A program made the position numbers and the translations under genes. Shown piece by piece: positions 16,743 through 40,748 of a stretch of DNA of 49,853 nucleotides (positions are counted from its first letter, which is position 1; every line of letters begins with the position of its first letter). The stretch is from Lachnospiraceae bacterium (lineage in GTDB: Bacteria > Bacillota > Clostridia > Lachnospirales > Lachnospiraceae). The notes below the pieces were generated by a model that worked only from the letters and a program-made list of their open reading frames with translations, was not told the origin of the DNA and made no database searches. The DNA lies in NCBI GenBank assembly GCA_017634975.1, contig JAGBMJ010000019.1, forward strand, positions 1 to 49,853, written 5' to 3'.

Positions 16743-17543
16743 ATGAATCTTATAAAGGTTGCGAACGAAACGATCCGGATCTGTAAGGAAGCAAAGTACG
16801 AAGCAGAAGGAACACAGGTGGTATTTCCGCAGGGCAGATATGATTCAGTTGAACTGATCACACCAAAGATGGGAGAGGATCTGTTGGCTGCGGAAGCAAA
16901 GACAAAGGATTCCGGTAAAATGTGCAGGATCTTGGTGCAGAACAGTGATTCCTATGCTGCAGCCCGTGCTTATGATCACGCATTGGTAATGAATTTTGCG
17001 AATGCGCATAATCCGGGAGGCGGATTCCGGATGGGCGCGACAGCACAGGAAGAAGCACTGTGCAGATGCAGTACGCTGTATGAATCGATCACTTCAAAGG
17101 ATGCTGCAGAAATGTATAAATATAACAATATGCATATCAGCAACGTCGAATCGGATTATATGCTCATTTCTCCGGAGGTGCTTGTATTTCGGAATGAGAA
17201 CCTGGATCTGTTAAAAGAACCGTTTCGGACTGCAGTGCTCACGGTACCGGCACCCAATCGTTTTGGGGCAGCGATGTTTGCATCTTCGGAAAAGATCCGG
17301 GATACCTTCCTTCGCAGGATCCGCATCATGTTGCGGGCGGCAGCGGAAAGAGGTTATCGGGATCTGGTGCTGGGTGCATGGGGCTGTGGTGCTTTTGGAA
17401 ATAAACCGGAGGAAGTCGCAGGATATTTCCGGCAGGTGATCCTCGAAGAAAAGGAAGGGGCCGCCTTTGATACCATCTGCTTTGCAATCTATGGTTCAGA
17501 GAATGGGAAGAATATTACCGCTTTTCACGAGGTGTTCCGGTAA
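16743..17543 (+). CDS. TIGR02452-type macrodomain protein (PARG-like)
   Basis: This 266-residue protein has the bacterial poly(ADP-ribose) glycohydrolase-like signature. NAHNPGGGFRMGATAQEEAL contains the ADP-ribose loop GGG (92-94) and the catalytic QEE (102-104), and LVLGAWGCGAFGNKPEEVA is the second loop. The family removes ADP-ribose from modified targets; in bacteria the partner is often unknown. A GAGGAGG site precedes the ATG. It stands alone: a decayed region lies upstream and 360 bases without a clear gene lie downstream. No ADP-ribosyltransferase gene is visible in this window, so its substrate source is open. Confidence 0.9.
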   Translation: MNLIKVANETIRICKEAKYEAEGTQVVFPQGRYDSVELITPKMGEDLLAAEAKTKDSGKMCRILVQNSDSYAAARAYDHALVMNFANAHNPGGGFRMGATAQEEALCRCSTLYESITSKDAAEMYKYNNMHISNVESDYMLISPEVLVFRNENLDLLKEPFRTAVLTVPAPNRFGAAMFASSEKIRDTFLRRIRIMLRAAAERGYRDLVLGAWGCGAFGNKPEEVAGYFRQVILEEKEGAAFDTICFAIYGSENGKNITAFHEVFR

Positions 17544-17905: not shown

Positions 17906-18157
17906 ATGAAAAAGATAGCAGGAATCGTTATATTAGTCGTAGGTGTACTGGCGACTGTTGTTGGAGCGTTAACATTCTACAAAATCGGATCTTATGTACC
18001 GCCTGAAGCATCGATCATTGGCGGGGCGGATGGCCCGACGACAGTTTTTCTGGCCGGCAGGATTGGACTGCCGGTATACGGAACAATCGCTGGCGGTGTT
18101 GTTCTAATGATTGTAGGAATACTATTGCTTATTTACAGAAAAGACAAAGAACAGTGA
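17906..18157 (+). CDS. Small two-pass membrane protein with OadB-like IIGGADGPT motif
   Basis: This 83-residue protein has two hydrophobic helices (residues about 4-25 and 60-77). The loop between carries ASIIGGADGPTTVFLAG (36-51), which matches the hallmark IIGGADGPT segment of the beta subunit of Na+-translocating decarboxylases (OadB/GcdB). The full beta subunit is about 350-430 residues, so this is not a complete pump subunit. I start it at ATG 17906 (weak AGAGAG site). The frame extends upstream into a lipobox-like stretch (LLTGCSAN) with no proper start. It overlaps the endonuclease V-like frame by four bases if that one starts at GTG 18154. Confidence 0.6.
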   Translation: MKKIAGIVILVVGVLATVVGALTFYKIGSYVPPEASIIGGADGPTTVFLAGRIGLPVYGTIAGGVVLMIVGILLLIYRKDKEQ

Positions 18158-18210
18158 CTCATGGATTTTTGCATCCGGAGGCAGTCACTAATGATGCGAA
18201 AGAGAGACAG

Positions 18211-18717
18211 ATGATCGTAATAATTGATGCTGATTACAATGAAGAGATCGGAAAAGCACACATAGCGGGCATTGTTGCCGAAACCATTTTTGATGAAAAG
18301 GAAAAGATGGTTGTTACGGCGATATCCGATGAGATCGGCGAATACATTCCGGGACAGTTTTACAAAAGGGAATTGAAAAGTGTCGAGCTGATCATCGCGC
18401 AGCTTGAGGTTTCTCAGATCGAACTGATCGTTGTAGACGGATACGCAGACTTCGGAACAGATAAGCTTGCACTGGGGGCTTATGTTTTTGAAAAGTACAG
18501 GATACCGGTGATCGGGATCGGAAAGAACAAGTACGAAGGATGCAAAGTACCGGAGACGGAAGTGTACCGCGGAGACAGTAAAAAGCCTTTGTATGTGACC
18601 TGCAAAGGGATACCGCTTGCAGAAGCAAAAGAAATGGTTGAAAAGATGGCGGGAGAGTATCGATTACCATATCTGGTAAAATATGCGGACAGTAAAGCCA
18701 GAGATTGGACTTTATGA
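18211..18717 (+). CDS. Endonuclease V-like protein, divergent
   Basis: This protein of about 168 residues follows the endonuclease V pattern: first strand IVIIDADY (Asp6), YIPGQFYKREL (Tyr45, Glu54), IELIVVDGYAD (Asp76-Gly77), RIPVIGIGKNKYEG and the C-terminal YRLPYLVKYADSKAR. Endonuclease V cuts DNA or RNA next to deoxyinosine or inosine. The two active-site Asp residues and the Glu are in place. However, the conserved segment after DG, normally GxxHPRxxGxAsH, reads YADFGTDKLALGAY, so the His/Pro pair is missing. I prefer ATG 18211, which puts the first strand at the N terminus; GTG 18154 would add 19 unrelated residues. Activity is uncertain. Confidence 0.7.
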   Translation: MIVIIDADYNEEIGKAHIAGIVAETIFDEKEKMVVTAISDEIGEYIPGQFYKRELKSVELIIAQLEVSQIELIVVDGYADFGTDKLALGAYVFEKYRIPVIGIGKNKYEGCKVPETEVYRGDSKKPLYVTCKGIPLAEAKEMVEKMAGEYRLPYLVKYADSKARDWTL

Positions 18718-18759: not shown

Positions 18760-18930
18760 CAAGAACGGGAATGGCTGGGCGGGGAGGATACCGACGAAAA
18801 TACGATCTGCGTTACGCCGGTGTCCCTGGCGCAGATCGAGAAGATCCATACGCTCACACGGATACGATTTTGAGTAGCCCAAAAGTATCTTGGAGATGAT
18901 AAAGGGGGATGTGATGAATTGTCAGCATAA
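18760..18930 (+). pseudogene. Possible coding remnant with one internal stop
   Basis: One frame is open from 18760 to 18930 except for a TGA at 18871-18873. It reads protein-like (EDTDENTICVTPVSLAQIEK before the stop, VAQKYLGDDKGGCDELSA after it). It has no start codon with a ribosome site and I do not recognise the family. It precedes the riboswitch promoter. Confidence 0.25.
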
Positions 18931-18979
18931 TTCACAAATATACAAGTGGAAGATTGGCACTCTAACGACGGAAGAAACA

Positions 18980-19007
18980 TTGATTTTATACGGATTTTTG
19001 GTATAAT
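18980..19007 (+). promoter_or_regulatory. Promoter of the riboswitch transcript
   Basis: TTGATT (18980-18985), a 16-base spacer and TATAAT (19002-19007) place the transcript start near 19014, a few bases before the aptamer. Confidence 0.75.
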
Positions 19008-19013
19008 AGTATT

Positions 19014-19112
19014 CAAATCTAAGGGCAAAACCATCGAAAGATGGCGACGCAAAGCTATAGGGACTAACGATGAAATGCGATTGCATCCATCAATGTCAGC
19101 CAGTTGCGATCA
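19014..19112 (+). ncRNA. Cyclic di-GMP-I (GEMM) riboswitch aptamer
   Basis: The core matches the GEMM-I consensus: GGGCAAAACC (19023-19032), a CCATC-GAAA-GATGG hairpin with GNRA tetraloop (19031-19044), then the near-invariant GACGCAAAGC (19046-19055), GGGACTAA, and the closing AGCCAGTTGC (19098-19107). The second hairpin (GATGAAATGCG through CATCCATC) supplies the tetraloop-receptor arm. It is preceded by its own promoter and followed by a strong terminator, so c-di-GMP binding should decide read-through into the membrane-protein gene at 19238. Whether binding turns the gene on or off cannot be read with confidence. Confidence 0.92.
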
Positions 19113-19144
19113 ACCATTGAAAAAGCAGTTGAAATCGAAACCGG

Positions 19145-19185
19145 ACGGCATTATGAAAAGCAATTTCATAGTGCCGTTTTTCTTT
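19145..19185 (+). terminator. Intrinsic terminator, expression platform of the riboswitch
   Basis: ACGGCATTATGAAA (19145-19158) pairs with TTTCATAGTGCCGT (19164-19177), a 14-bp stem with one G-U pair and a 5-base loop, and runs into TTTTTCTTT. It lies between aptamer and gene, as expected for transcriptional control. Confidence 0.9.
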
Positions 19186-19237
19186 GGCGCAGGTGGGATC
19201 GTGGGAGAAAACTGTGAGAACAAAGGGGGGGACCGGT

Positions 19238-19579
19238 ATGGAGCTGGAGGTAAGAAATGAAAACAGGCAGAGAGAGACGGAAAAAAAGAAGGAGATGCCG
19301 GTGCAGATCATAAAGCGTCCGGGCAATGAGCTGACGGTTGAATACGACAAAGAGCAGAAAATGTTGAAAATCAAAATCTGGACCCCGCTTCTGGTACTTC
19401 CGGGGCTGACTCTGCTGGGAATCGGCGGTCTGCTGCTGATCATCGGTATGCCGATATTGTGCCTGGTAACCTGTATCATCGGGGCAGTTTTGTTTGGTAT
19501 GTCAAACTTATCCAACATACAAAAAGAGGAAGAAAAAAATGACAGCATAGACCGGGAAATCGAAAAGCGGATCGGATGA
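19238..19579 (+). CDS. Riboswitch-controlled two-helix membrane protein
   Basis: ATG 19238 follows a run of seven G (19225-19231) that serves as ribosome site. The 113-residue product has a highly charged N terminus (ENRQRETEKKKE) and a short beta-like stretch (QIIKRPGNELTVEYDKEQ). Two adjacent hydrophobic helices follow (LLVLPGLTLLGIGGLLLIIG and ILCLVTCIIGAVLFGMS), then a charged cytoplasmic tail. I do not recognise a family. It is the only gene downstream of the c-di-GMP-I riboswitch before a terminator, so its expression should follow cellular c-di-GMP. A role in the envelope or in surface behaviour is inference. Confidence 0.75.
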   Translation: MELEVRNENRQRETEKKKEMPVQIIKRPGNELTVEYDKEQKMLKIKIWTPLLVLPGLTLLGIGGLLLIIGMPILCLVTCIIGAVLFGMSNLSNIQKEEEKNDSIDREIEKRIG

Positions 19580-19589
19580 TCCGTTTTTT
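19568..19589 (+). terminator. Intrinsic terminator at the gene end
   Basis: CGGATC (19568-19573) pairs with GATCCG (19578-19583) around GGAT, followed by six T. The stem includes the stop codon of the membrane-protein gene, closing a single-gene riboswitch unit. Confidence 0.8.
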
Positions 19590-19653
19590 CTTTGCTCTGC
19601 TAACTGAGTTACCCTGCTTATACACAAGATGGCAGATGGCAATAAAATAATCA

Positions 19654-19688: not shown

Positions 19689-20996
19689 ATGTCAGATTTT
19701 CAGGAATTGATCAAAAACATCGATAAGTGCCGGGATTATGTGCGGGATTTCTTTGTCTACGGCTTTAAGAGCCGCAGTGATTTCCCCGGGAAAAGTGCGC
19801 GAACTTATGATGATGAACGCCGTCGTATCGTCAGCTGGCTGCCGGAGTATGTAGCGGAGGATTTTACGGAGGGCGGCAAGTCCAAGAATATTTCCCTTCA
19901 GATCGATCAGAAAAAACTGCATACCAATCCGCTGTATCGTGTGTGGGAAACCAAAAGTTTTACCGACCGGGATCTGAGCCTGCACTTCTTTCTCTTAAAA
20001 CTTCTGCAGGAGAGGGATGCAGCCTTTTCTGCCGCAGAACTGACGGATCTGCTTATGGACGAATACGGATATGAAGCTGATCTGCAGAGTGTGCGCAGGA
20101 AGTGCAATGAGTATGTGGAGGAAGGGCTTCTGACTGTCCGAAAGGAAGGCAAAACAATCCGCTATCGCAGGGAGATCTTTTATAAAGAGCTGCCGTATGC
20201 GGAGAAACTGCTCGATCTGATTCGCTGTTTTCAGATGGATCAGCCGCTGGGGATCGTCGGACATACGATACTGACAGAACAGCGGGCAGAAAACGAGATC
20301 TATCGCGTTAAGCATGGATTTCCGACCTTTACATTGGAGGATGAGATCCTTGCTTCTCTTCTGGAGGCCATCCATCAGCGGCAGAAGGTGCAGATGCGCG
20401 TGCAGAGTAACCGCCATACCCAGGAGGCGAGCAGTCAAAAAGCAGGATTTCCGGTAAAGATCTTTGTGAGCGTGCGCAGCGGACGACGTTTTGTATGCAT
20501 ATATATGATCAATAAAAGATCTTCGCATTTTCATTGCGTGCGGCTGGATCAGATCAAGGAAGTTACTATCCTGCCGGACGTGGTTCCGGAAGGGAAAGAC
20601 TTAAAGCATATCCTGACATCGGTGCAGCCAAAGGTCTGGGGTGTTTCGTTTTCGCCTCTGCTTCCCGGGCACAAGCCGTTTCAGAAGCTGATCCTGACGA
20701 TCCGAGCGGACGAAAAGAGAGAACCCTATATTGTGCAGCGTCTGGTCCGGGAGGGCGAAGGCGGAACGATTGAAAAGACTGCCCCCGATACATTCCGTTA
20801 TGAAAAGACCGTAAAGGATGCGATGGAGATGTTTCCCTGGGTCCGCAGTTTTATCGGAAGGATCGTGGATCTGAAGATCTACGGGACGGACGGGGAGCAG
20901 ACGTTTGAAGAGAATGAGCAGCTGGAAAAAATGTTTTTTGCGGATCTGCAGAAGATGTATCAGGTCTATGGCATAGCGAAAGATTCGGAAGCGTAA
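19689..20996 (+). CDS. WYL-domain transcriptional regulator (first of pair)
   Basis: This 435-residue cytoplasmic protein has an N-terminal region (RDYVRDFFVYGFKSRSDF) with an ARTYDDERRRI segment typical of Lachnospiraceae WYL pairs. A winged-helix domain follows about residues 115-160 (FSAAELTDLLMDEYGY, VRRKCNEYVEEGLLTV). Next is a WYL-type Sm-like beta domain (FVCIYMINKRSSHFHCVRLD, residues about 260-300), and a WCX-like C-terminal part ends the protein. WYL proteins bind DNA and are switched by nucleic-acid or nucleotide ligands. The start has no ribosome site and the promoter ends seven bases before it. The second WYL gene begins one base after the stop, so the two products probably act together. 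Confidence 0.85.
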   Translation: MSDFQELIKNIDKCRDYVRDFFVYGFKSRSDFPGKSARTYDDERRRIVSWLPEYVAEDFTEGGKSKNISLQIDQKKLHTNPLYRVWETKSFTDRDLSLHFFLLKLLQERDAAFSAAELTDLLMDEYGYEADLQSVRRKCNEYVEEGLLTVRKEGKTIRYRREIFYKELPYAEKLLDLIRCFQMDQPLGIVGHTILTEQRAENEIYRVKHGFPTFTLEDEILASLLEAIHQRQKVQMRVQSNRHTQEASSQKAGFPVKIFVSVRSGRRFVCIYMINKRSSHFHCVRLDQIKEVTILPDVVPEGKDLKHILTSVQPKVWGVSFSPLLPGHKPFQKLILTIRADEKREPYIVQRLVREGEGGTIEKTAPDTFRYEKTVKDAMEMFPWVRSFIGRIVDLKIYGTDGEQTFEENEQLEKMFFADLQKMYQVYGIAKDSEA

Positions 20997-20997
20997 G

Positions 20998-21960
20998 ATG
21001 GAGAGACTTTTTTCAGAAATCTACAATCGATATTTTCAGATCGTAAACCGCCTGCTGCTGAAGCGTGGAACCATCAGTCCGAAGATGCTGAAAAGTACGG
21101 TGCAAAAGTACGGCTTTGGCGAAAGCATGCTCTTTTTGCTTCCCGGACTTTCCGAAAATCGCTGGGAACTTTTTGAGAAAACAGAGGGCGGCTTTTGTTC
21201 CAAGCTTCCGGGTGGTGTGACGGTACCGCTCAGCCGGCTGCAGAAGCGGTGGTTAAAGGCGGTTTTGTGCGACCCGCGCGCGGCGCTTTTTCTGGATGAG
21301 GAACAGAAGGAGAAGATAACCGAGGTATTACGGGATGTTACGCCTTTGTTTCATTATGAAGATTTCCGCTATTTTGACCGTTTCTCCGACGGGGATGATT
21401 ATGCAGAGGAAAACTATAGAAAACAGTTCCGGATCATACGGGATGCGATCCGGAACGAACAGATCCTGCGCATTCGTTACGAGGCACGGACGGGAAGGGT
21501 CACAAAACTGACGATACGTCCGCAGTATCTGGAATACTCCGTCAAGAATAACTGTTTCCGACTGTTGTGTGAAGTGGTCGGGAAAAACCGCACGCAGAAA
21601 CACATCCTGCGCATCTCCCGGATGAGAGAGGCAGAGGTTTCTGACGAAGATCCAAACGAGGAGCTGTTGGCTTATGAAGAAAAAGAACCGGAAAAGATCA
21701 CGCTTCTGATCCGGGATCAGCGGAATGCCGTGGAGCGCATTATGCTGCAGTTTGCGGATTACCGCAAAAACACGGTACACCTGGAGGATAATACATACCG
21801 TTGCGAGATCTTTTACGATAAAGATGATGAGACGGAGCTGCTGATCGAGATCCTGTCTTTCGGGCCGATGATCGAGGTGGTGAATGTACCGGAAAACAAG
21901 CGATTTCTCGGGCTGATGCGGGAGCGGCTGCAAAAGCAAAAGGCGCTGGAATTGATATAG
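20998..21960 (+). CDS. WYL-domain protein (second of pair)
   Basis: This 320-residue protein lacks an obvious N-terminal winged helix. Its core, residues about 140-205 (AIRNEQILRIRYEARTGR through LTIRPQYLEYSVKNNCFRLL), is a WYL domain in which the eponymous motif is altered. It ends with a WCX-like domain (RMREAEVSDED onward; FGPMIEVVNVPENKR). The gene starts one base after its partner's stop, which demands translational coupling. Tandem WYL genes of this layout are frequent in Lachnospiraceae and are thought to form a heteromeric regulator; the target here is unknown. Confidence 0.82.
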   Translation: MERLFSEIYNRYFQIVNRLLLKRGTISPKMLKSTVQKYGFGESMLFLLPGLSENRWELFEKTEGGFCSKLPGGVTVPLSRLQKRWLKAVLCDPRAALFLDEEQKEKITEVLRDVTPLFHYEDFRYFDRFSDGDDYAEENYRKQFRIIRDAIRNEQILRIRYEARTGRVTKLTIRPQYLEYSVKNNCFRLLCEVVGKNRTQKHILRISRMREAEVSDEDPNEELLAYEEKEPEKITLLIRDQRNAVERIMLQFADYRKNTVHLEDNTYRCEIFYDKDDETELLIEILSFGPMIEVVNVPENKRFLGLMRERLQKQKALELI

Positions 21961-38288: not shown

Positions 38289-40748
38289 ATGGATACGATT
38301 CGATTGGAAAAGAACCAGATCATCCGGATGAAGAATCATTTCGGAGAACAAGGGGGCAAAATGGGAAATCAGAAAGAAAAAGGTTTCCGGAAGCTGAACC
38401 GAAGTCAGCTCGGGTCGGTATTGATCATTTATCTGATCGTATCTTTGGTTTTTAATGCATTTCTGGCCTTTTTTGCCAATATGTTCCTAAAGTACGTGGT
38501 AGAGAGCAGGATCTACAGCGAGTATAAAGATCTTGTTTATATGACAAAGCTGTACGAGAAGCAGGATGTGCTCGGGGATATTGCCGTTTTTCTCGGAGAA
38601 GAAGATAAAGAGTATTTTCTGGCAGACCGGGATCAGAATATCCTGTACCAGAGAGGAGAGAATACCTGCAGCAAGAATGGCGGCACGGTACGGCTGTCTA
38701 TGCTGGGAAAAAAAGTATATCTGTGTGAGGACCGGGAGATCCGGCTGCTGCGTCGTAAGAGTGACGGGGTAACGTTTGATATGCCGGCATTTTTGGAATG
38801 GACAAAGCAGACCAATGGCTTACAGAAGCTGGCGGATAAAGGGGCAACGCTGGATATTCCGTTCTGGATCGCGGAAGATGTAGGATTCACCAATACGAGG
38901 CTTTACTGTAAAGCATACTTCAGTGTGGATGCTTCGGATCTGATCTTTCTGGCGGCGATCACCGTATCCATTCTGGTGATGATCCTCGGTATGTCCTTTA
39001 TGCTCATTTATCATATCGTGGGCAGTATCGTCAGACAGCGCAAGATGACCAATCTTTTCTTTATGGACGATGTGACCGGCGGGCGCAACTGGATGTGGTT
39101 TATGATCAAAGGTGAGCAGCTGCTGCAGAAGCCATATACGCAGAGAAGTAATTTTGCGATGATCAATATTTCTTTTATCAAGTATCGCAATTTCTGCATG
39201 TGTCACTCGATCAAAGAAGGTGAGGATATCCTTGCCAAGGTGGATAAACTTCTGGTGAAGGATATTGAAAAGAATGATCTGTGTGCGCACAATTCTTCCG
39301 CTAATTTTGCGGTGCTGATGAGGTTTAATAATGAGGAACAGCTCCATTCCTTCCTGGAGAAGCTGCTGAAGGATCTGGAGATCGTAGACGGTATCCATAA
39401 ATTCAGTTTCCATATCGGTGTAAGTATCATACGTGAATGGCATGATGTGCGGAAATGGTGGCTGCTCCGACGCCGTATGGCAGATCTGGAAAAGGAATAT
39501 AACAATGCCTGCACGGCAAGAGAGACGCTGGCGGATAACGATAACTCCGCGATCGCTTTCTTTGATGAGCGGATGATACAGGAGCAGCGGTGGCTGGATA
39601 TCGTGCAGGAGAACCAGCAGAGAGCGTTGCAGGATGAAGAGTTTGTGGTATTCTATCAGCCGAAGTACGATCCCAAGACGGATCGTCTGTGCGGTGCGGA
39701 AGCTCTGATCCGCTGGGAATCGCCGGTCTATGGCTTTAAGGGACCGGATACCATCATTCCGATCTTTGAAAAGAACGGTTTTATTACCGAGATCGATACC
39801 TATATGATCCGGCGCGTCGCCAGAGATCAAAAGGAATGGGTAGATAAGGGCTATGCCTGTGTACCTGTTTCCGTTAATGTGTCCAGAGCACATTTTGCGG
39901 AGAGCAATCTGGCCCAGCAGATCCGTGATCTGGTAGATGCCGAGCAGGCACCGCATGAGCTGATCGAGATCGAGCTGACGGAAAGTGCATTCTTTGATGA
40001 CAAGACGGCATTGGTATCCACGATCAAGAAACTGAAGGAATTTGGTTTTGTGGTTTCTATGGATGATTTCGGCGCGGGTTATTCTTCCTTAAATTCTCTG
40101 AAGGATATGCCGCTGGATGTATTGAAACTGGATGCGGAATTTTTCCGCGGTGACAGCGAAGACGGAAGAGGCGAGATTGTAATCTCCGAAGCGTTGCAGC
40201 TGGCCAAAAAGCTGCATATGCGTACGGTTGCGGAAGGCGTGGAAGCCCGTGAACAGGTGGATTTTCTGGCGGAAAAAGGCTGCGATATGATCCAGGGCTA
40301 TTATTATTCCAAACCTCTGCCAAAGAGCGATTTTGAAAGCCGCCTGAAAGAAGAGATGCAGAAAGTGGCCGCGGAAAAAGAGGAGAAGGAAAAAGAAGAA
40401 AAGGATAAAGAAGAAAAGGCAGCCGGGGAAGTGAAGACGGACGAAGAAACAGAAAACGGAGAGAGTCCGGAAGAAGTCAAACCGGAAGATAGAAAGAACG
40501 AAACGGCTGGAACGGAAGAAGTGAAGAACGAAGGGGCTTCCGCGACAGAGGATAAAGCGGAGAGCGCGGAGGAGCCGGAGGCAGTAAAGATCAGGAACGA
40601 AGAAACGAAGGACGGAGAGCCGGAGAATGCAGAAACGGAAAGTGAAGAGGATAAAAGAAAAGAATTCGAGAGAGAAGAAGGAAAGGAAGCGTTCCTTTTG
40701 AAACCGGATCCGGAGATGGCCGGGCAGGAACAGCCGGACAGTCCGTAA
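38289..40748 (+). CDS. Membrane c-di-GMP phosphodiesterase: degenerate GGDEF plus EAL, with acidic tail
   Basis: This protein of about 819 residues has a membrane helix at about 43-66, an external sensor region of about 150 residues, a second helix (about 215-243), a GGDEF-like domain (about 255-410) and an EAL domain (about 440-685). The GGDEF signature is replaced by SSANF, so it should not make c-di-GMP. The EAL domain keeps its catalytic set: EAL near 470, NVSRAHF, ELTES, DDFGAGYSSL, LKLDAEF, AEGVE and IQGYYYSKP. It therefore probably hydrolyses c-di-GMP. The last 130 residues are a Glu/Lys-rich low-complexity tail. ATG 38289 has GAGG nearby; ATG 38361 has AGGGGG and may be the true start. 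The stop overlaps the next gene by one base. Confidence 0.9.
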   Translation: MDTIRLEKNQIIRMKNHFGEQGGKMGNQKEKGFRKLNRSQLGSVLIIYLIVSLVFNAFLAFFANMFLKYVVESRIYSEYKDLVYMTKLYEKQDVLGDIAVFLGEEDKEYFLADRDQNILYQRGENTCSKNGGTVRLSMLGKKVYLCEDREIRLLRRKSDGVTFDMPAFLEWTKQTNGLQKLADKGATLDIPFWIAEDVGFTNTRLYCKAYFSVDASDLIFLAAITVSILVMILGMSFMLIYHIVGSIVRQRKMTNLFFMDDVTGGRNWMWFMIKGEQLLQKPYTQRSNFAMINISFIKYRNFCMCHSIKEGEDILAKVDKLLVKDIEKNDLCAHNSSANFAVLMRFNNEEQLHSFLEKLLKDLEIVDGIHKFSFHIGVSIIREWHDVRKWWLLRRRMADLEKEYNNACTARETLADNDNSAIAFFDERMIQEQRWLDIVQENQQRALQDEEFVVFYQPKYDPKTDRLCGAEALIRWESPVYGFKGPDTIIPIFEKNGFITEIDTYMIRRVARDQKEWVDKGYACVPVSVNVSRAHFAESNLAQQIRDLVDAEQAPHELIEIELTESAFFDDKTALVSTIKKLKEFGFVVSMDDFGAGYSSLNSLKDMPLDVLKLDAEFFRGDSEDGRGEIVISEALQLAKKLHMRTVAEGVEAREQVDFLAEKGCDMIQGYYYSKPLPKSDFESRLKEEMQKVAAEKEEKEKEEKDKEEKAAGEVKTDEETENGESPEEVKPEDRKNETAGTEEVKNEGASATEDKAESAEEPEAVKIRNEETKDGEPENAETESEEDKRKEFEREEGKEAFLLKPDPEMAGQEQPDSP

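Follow-up and report, generated by a model that had tools for sequence, protein, structure and literature searches.

A self-contained c-di-GMP-I riboswitch unit, probably an OFF switch, ahead of a gene for a small putative membrane protein in Lachnospiraceae

A contig of a Lachnospiraceae bacterium carries a c-di-GMP riboswitch directly ahead of one small gene, and the question raised by this locus is what the switch controls, in which direction, and whether the pair constitutes a new c-di-GMP output. The window analyzed is the whole stretch of 49,853 bases. A preliminary description, made from the letters alone, saw five parts here (promoter, aptamer, terminator, gene and closing terminator) and proposed a new c-di-GMP output through a two-helix membrane protein. 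Follow-up analysis indicates that the unit is probably a self-contained c-di-GMP-I riboswitch governing a single gene at the level of transcription and turned OFF by its ligand, as judged from sequence and folding, such that the protein, a membrane hairpin by hydropathy, would be made at low c-di-GMP.

The identity of the riboswitch as c-di-GMP-I is near certain from its fit to the family model. A covariance-model scan matched RF01051 (c-di-GMP-I, GEMM-I) at 19014-19111 on the plus strand over the full model, with 66.7 bits and an E-value of 5.5e-11, nearly twice the gathering cut-off of 35 bits, and the significant hit on which the preliminary description depended was thus obtained. This was the sole Rfam match at gathering scores across the window. 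Of the 21 modelled pairs whose two positions are both filled in the main alignment block, 20 are standard, and the GAAA tetraloop lies at 19036-19039. At 98 bases the aptamer has a long P3 arm, a trait common to a sub-group of eight leaders in the genus. In c-di-GMP-I aptamers, a G at the discriminating position confers preference for c-di-GMP over cGAMP; the segment GGGCAAA, with G throughout, may include that position.

Upstream of the aptamer, and ending six bases 5' of it, is a sigma-70-type promoter at 18980-19007 (plus strand), TTGATT and TATAAT with a 16-base spacer and an extended TG before the second hexamer, which matches 10 of 12 hexamer letters and is 86-96% identical in three genomes. 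The promoter scan alone proves little, since it returned five such sites in the 1 kb concerned, against 1.2 expected from shuffles. Further upstream, 18925-18979 (plus strand) forms the conserved edge of the unit and possibly a transcription-factor region: blastn homology to loci L037 and L038 begins at exactly 18925 in both, and identity among the three genomes stands at 72-82% for 18941-18979, as against 49-55% for the 5'UTR after the terminator.

The intrinsic terminator of the riboswitch (19143-19185, plus strand) starts after a 31-base linker 3' of the aptamer and comprises a stem at 19143-19179, of 16 pairs by both scan and fold, plus a T tail. In a covariation test of 14 of these pairs across eight related leaders, seven changed on both sides, a number reached in 0 of 500 shuffles. 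Between terminator and gene lie the last 52 bases of the leader, among them a G-rich ribosome-binding stretch. The 5' arm of the terminator also has a potential partner within the aptamer. AATGTC at 19092-19097 and GGCATT at 19147-19152 (both plus strand) would form the two sides of an anti-terminator, and this pairing is possible in all eight related leaders, with 48 of 48 cells standard compared with 23-54% when the strands are slid by one to three columns. Variants occur in the terminator 5' arm (GACATT in G010, GGCGTT in C51) and in the aptamer strand (GATGTC in C51). Three of the six pairs are invariant, three vary on one side only and none on both, and the shuffle control cannot separate them; support for the anti-terminator is therefore conservation and not covariation. 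The best duplex lies at AATGTC in six of the eight leaders and elsewhere in L010 and L001. Complementarity within single sequences was non-significant against shuffled arms (p 0.07-0.29 for seven group members, 0.096 for the window copy), with two arms, those of L001 and L009, set by hand.

Folding of nascent RNA places the two structures in competition. In the unliganded ensemble, the anti-terminator had a probability of 0.82, 0.85 and 0.82 for RNA ends at 19158, 19163 and 19170, respectively, all of which precede completion of the terminator 3' arm. When the aptamer was forced at 19158-19170, the six GGCATT bases were unpaired with probabilities of 0.28-0.98 (16 of 18 values above 0.5), and by an RNA end of 19170 terminator formation had already begun. 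The forced aptamer was less stable than the free fold by 7.5-8.2 kcal/mol at 19158-19170 and by 3.9 kcal/mol at 19111, a difference that ligand binding must pay, although these energies ignore tertiary contacts and ligand. Because the full-length minimum-energy fold holds the terminator with or without the aptamer, the argument for an OFF switch is a kinetic one. On sequence and energy grounds, then, aptamer and anti-terminator are mutually exclusive and a T run follows the terminator, as in an OFF switch, with single sequences falling short of significance. Since aptamer folding frees the terminator 5' arm, c-di-GMP should permit the terminator, and the platform likely acts to halt transcription upstream of the gene, a direction on which the preliminary description had not decided. 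In the proposed mechanism, without ligand, 19092-19097 and the linker would pair with the terminator 5' arm, the terminator could not form in time, and RNA polymerase would proceed into the gene. With c-di-GMP bound, the aptamer would retain strand 19092-19097 and leave the arm free, the terminator would form near 19185, and the membrane protein would not be produced; it follows that the protein would be made in the low c-di-GMP state.

The gene runs from an ATG at 19238 to a stop at 19577-19579 (19238-19579 with the stop, plus strand) and has 113 codons. Across the three homologue pairs, dN/dS by NG86 was 0.10/0.75, 0.30/1.52 and 0.28/1.26, ratios of about 0.14-0.22 that are rough because dS is near saturation; the low values argue that the frame is kept as protein by purifying selection. 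A hydrophobic stretch spans about residues 48-90, and on hydropathy the product is inferred to be a membrane hairpin, as the preliminary description had it with its two helices. The best-kept parts among the three homologues are this hydrophobic region and a C-terminal NDSxDREIxKRIG. AlphaFold2, run on three sequences, returned a single long helix at 31-112 at low confidence (mean pLDDT 63.4, pTM 0.28). No Pfam or NCBIfam model, those of c-di-GMP effectors included, exceeded its cut-off (best E 0.11 and 0.13, respectively), and no relative was found by sequence among PDB chains, in agreement with the earlier view that this is an unrecognized protein and not a known c-di-GMP effector. As a guess, its cellular role when c-di-GMP is low could be that of a small envelope protein or of a factor that modulates a membrane complex.

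Homologues of the protein were found in three of the 60 genomes searched, the organism's own (G000) included, and all three belong to the same Lachnospiraceae genus (3 of 35 genus genomes). The other two homologues are 81% and 56% identical to the window protein; their genomes, of which G006 is one and G032 the other, are Lachnospiraceae metagenome-assembled genomes, one of them from sheep omasum. A further search of genome contigs returned just the same two homologues, and no relative was detected in the viral contigs, phages and plasmids searched. In 397 genomes of the family (an even draw, with few of this genus), no convincing homologue was found outside the genus. Four weak, partial matches there (E 3.5e-4 to 4.9e-4) were set aside as chance matches to membrane segments: three lie in open frames of 404-590 amino acids and the fourth in a frame of 80 aa with a stop, and RF01051 was absent from the fetched loci of all four.

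The riboswitch precedes all three homologous genes, and the pairing that the preliminary description proposed to look for in relatives was thus found. The conserved unit is 18925-19581 (657 bp), beginning 55 bases before the -35 box. Its left edge is identical in all three pairwise blastn comparisons, and the match to the G006 locus stops at 19581; beyond these edges the surroundings differ in G006, while G032 has the same right flank of WYL-like genes and a different left. Identity among the three genomes is 96-100% in the aptamer, 75-87% in the linker, 86-95% in the terminator and lowest in the post-terminator stretch cited above. Pilin-type aptamers of the genus (named by eye) served as a control, with 78-92% identity to the own-genome copy over eight comparisons; conservation of the unit's aptamer is thus high, without being unparalleled. 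There being no terminal repeats around the unit, it is not put forward as a transposon or integron cassette. The repeat search gave one 12-base inverted pair in the window, with its right arm inside the gene, and, within the upstream gene of L038, one direct pair.

It is at the right edge that the five-part arrangement requires revision. Promoter, aptamer, terminator and gene stand as described, and together with their co-conservation they make a complete single-gene c-di-GMP-I unit on the evidence of the sequence. The closing terminator, however, does not belong to the conserved unit: a terminator-like hairpin at 19562-19589 (plus strand, by scan) overlaps the last codons, spans the junction at 19576-19581, and is missing in G006, one of the three homologues. 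Abutting the unit, and not part of it, is a tRNA-like RNA gene truncated to its 5' part (19576-19617, minus strand, by flank homology); on the side of the WYL-like genes, flank homology with the window starts at 19576 in five of ten loci and at 19578 in a sixth. From the position of the hairpin across this junction and its absence in G006, the closing terminator is probably a product of the joining of the unit to the truncated RNA gene, a state common to the window and G032.

Several observations concern the tRNA-like RNA and its neighbors. Complete copies of the tandem RNA occur at L046 (from 1430, minus strand), L047 (2898-3118), L048, L050, L052, L117 and L118, and the RNA is flanked by a DUF2828 gene on one side and a pair of WYL-like genes on the other. 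Its first part has acceptor, D and T arms, and where an anticodon arm would stand it has a GGATCA..TGATCC hairpin; its second part has a T-arm-like loop closed by TGACACAT..ATGTGTCA. RF00005 was over cut-off in two of ten loci scanned (42.6 and 38.5 bits), and ARAGORN called no tRNA at the tRNA-like RNA loci. Seven copies fold alike, with 285 of 294 cells paired and both-sided change in 3 of 42 pairs, a count without control in which two copies are identical. The RNA is reminiscent of the bacterial Y RNAs near Ro60 that carry a tRNA-like domain (PMC7790460). A TROVE (PF05731) label for the DUF2828 neighbor was rejected, as it was over cut-off in none of 35 genus genomes, with one sub-threshold match. 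In G006 and G021 a complete copy adjoins WYL-like genes; the complete copy of the own genome, like that of G032, lies beside the DUF2828 gene on another contig, the WYL-like pair and the DUF2828 gene being on different contigs in both. In the window the pair is 19689-20996 and 20998-21960. Its second gene matches PF13280 at 20.8 bits, just below the cut-off of 21.8, and its first matches no family; this first gene is present in 13 of 35 genus genomes (one weakly) and the DUF2828 gene in 14 of 35 (four at 36-40% identity). A shared operon with the WYL-like genes was also dismissed, since a terminator-like hairpin lies between and, in G006, unit and pair are on different contigs. The window further holds a PARG-type macrodomain protein (16743-17543) and, just upstream of the unit, an endonuclease V-like frame (18154-18717).

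The organism is rich in c-di-GMP signaling, its genome having 52 GGDEF and 25 EAL matches at E <= 0.001, of which 50 and 25 are over cut-off; near-duplicates occur among them, and contamination of the assembly is rated at 7.5%. A GGDEF-EAL protein is encoded in the window itself (39060-40316). RF01051 finds five c-di-GMP-I places in this genome, and model R1 adds a sixth, weaker one on C96 (50.9 bits); genus-wide there are 45 places in 17 of 35 genomes, by searches that score only part of the first-look candidates. The close leader group comprises the window, three leaders in G032, one each in G006, G002 and G010, and own-genome C51. A model from these eight leaders scored its members at 129-180 bits in the 35 genus genomes, values raised because those same leaders built it, and the next best at 86; in the 397 family genomes the best score outside the genus was 97 bits.

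Genes behind the genus switches include those for pilin-like, small helix-turn-helix, secreted-looking and zinc-ribbon membrane proteins, as named by eye and, for six, by Pfam, which found a zinc ribbon in L025, a helix-turn-helix (HTH_17) below cut-off in L009, and no family for the first-gene proteins of L010 and L013. At 28 further family loci, a simple rule called a frame in 26 and none in two, and by eye the first genes included those for zinc-ribbon membrane and small helix-turn-helix proteins, one flagellin-like protein and several secreted-looking ones. Helix-turn-helix-like proteins of 64-73 aa, again by eye, stand behind leaders L009, L020, L021, L059 and L072 in five genomes. Two tandem c-di-GMP-I aptamers, 271 bases from start to start, were seen near a contig end at G000:C126 9833-10177 (L005). 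Zinc-ribbon membrane proteins lie directly behind leaders in three family genomes (L025 849-1400 minus, L071 1714-3135, L073 275-1453 minus) and are a possible recurrent target class, assigned by Pfam for L025 and by eye for L071 and L073. Like the window protein they are membrane proteins, by hydropathy, directly behind the switch, and over 164 columns the L025 leader shares 80% identity with that of the window; they differ from it in carrying a zinc ribbon.

Among known systems, the window agrees with c-di-GMP-I (RF01051) in matching the full covariance model and in its terminator platform, and differs in its long-P3 aptamer sub-group and new target gene. In the available text of two Clostridioides difficile studies, class I switches there are mostly OFF, by premature termination (PMC3649979, PMC6200980). 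Four duplicated ones precede conserved hypothetical proteins (PMC3649979, same portion), with altered downstream-gene transcripts described for three of the four, and one class I target that rises with c-di-GMP does so because of its promoter (PMC6200980, likewise). As far as these papers and a 2024 review are available, Cdi1_8 to Cdi1_11 and others (CD1424, CD1990.3, CD2309, CD3368.2) resemble the window in being class I, with a gene for a small hypothetical protein behind and a duplicated leader; for Cdi1_9, termination-based OFF control, the mode predicted for the window, is demonstrated (PMC3649979, PMC6200980, PMC11477304). According to the review, several class I targets are small hypothetical proteins, and mention is made of 58-aa proteins without conserved domains, from which the 113-aa window protein with its hydrophobic hairpin is set apart by description (PMC11477304). 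Since class I OFF switches ahead of small uncharacterized proteins are already known from C. difficile, the novelty of the window is a new orphan target. The suggestion of a new c-di-GMP output thus holds for the target, which is new to the searches made, and is too broad otherwise, with the protein in three of 35 genus genomes and riboswitch-controlled small uncharacterized proteins already described in C. difficile.

Other readings of the locus must be weighed against the preferred one. An ON switch, in which ligand would let transcription go on and the protein would be made at high c-di-GMP, has parallels close by: in four of the 24 genus switches with a called terminator (L014, L022, L032, L035) the terminator 5' arm overlaps the aptamer 3' end, which suggests that these are ON switches, and both directions may occur within one genus (the finder called no terminator in 9 of 33 aptamers and chose a sub-hairpin in L009). 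The conserved upstream region could also add positive control at the promoter. The window terminator, however, begins only after the linker and has a 5' arm able to form pairs with the aptamer core, such that aptamer folding frees the arm; an ON switch is accordingly considered unlikely here.

In a further proposal, the leader RNA would be the conserved product, with the protein secondary: either the RNA of about 170 nt released at the terminator would have an additional role in trans, or leaders would be homogenized between paralogues. The whole leader is indeed 90-95% identical among the three genomes compared with 53-72% at third codon positions, and the eight close leaders, in five genomes, stand before genes of at least five kinds, the one at C51 being hard to classify. 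The needs of aptamer, linker and terminator can nonetheless account for much of this conservation, the 92% identity of the G000/G006 pilin-type aptamer means that the window's 100% is not far out, and the gene itself is under purifying selection, leaving a primary role for the leader RNA improbable. That the switch has decayed or been decoupled, its aptamer no longer binding c-di-GMP or its gene unexpressed, would have precedent in C. difficile, where 5 of 12 class I copies are without a downstream coding sequence in the available text of PMC6200980; it is very hard to reconcile with a full-length aptamer match, 96-100% aptamer identity across genomes, a covarying terminator and low dN/dS.

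In summary, the preferred reading is of a riboswitch-gene pair that is clean and minimal, has an expression platform open to reading, and is predicted to repress a small membrane protein when c-di-GMP is bound. A bolder and rather doubtful extension is that near-identical c-di-GMP-I leaders specific to this genus spread independently of coding sequence and recruit unrelated small envelope genes, the 657-bp unit having become portable as a cassette whose dedicated output at low c-di-GMP is a new membrane protein, and the terminated leader perhaps acting as an RNA. Little published work joining c-di-GMP, riboswitch and Lachnospiraceae was found in a limited search, which gave a C. difficile biofilm review, and such work may exist elsewhere. 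Confirmation of the preferred reading would suggest that small orphan membrane proteins are recurrent c-di-GMP-repressed outputs across clostridia, and the switch would then provide a direct handle on what these proteins do.
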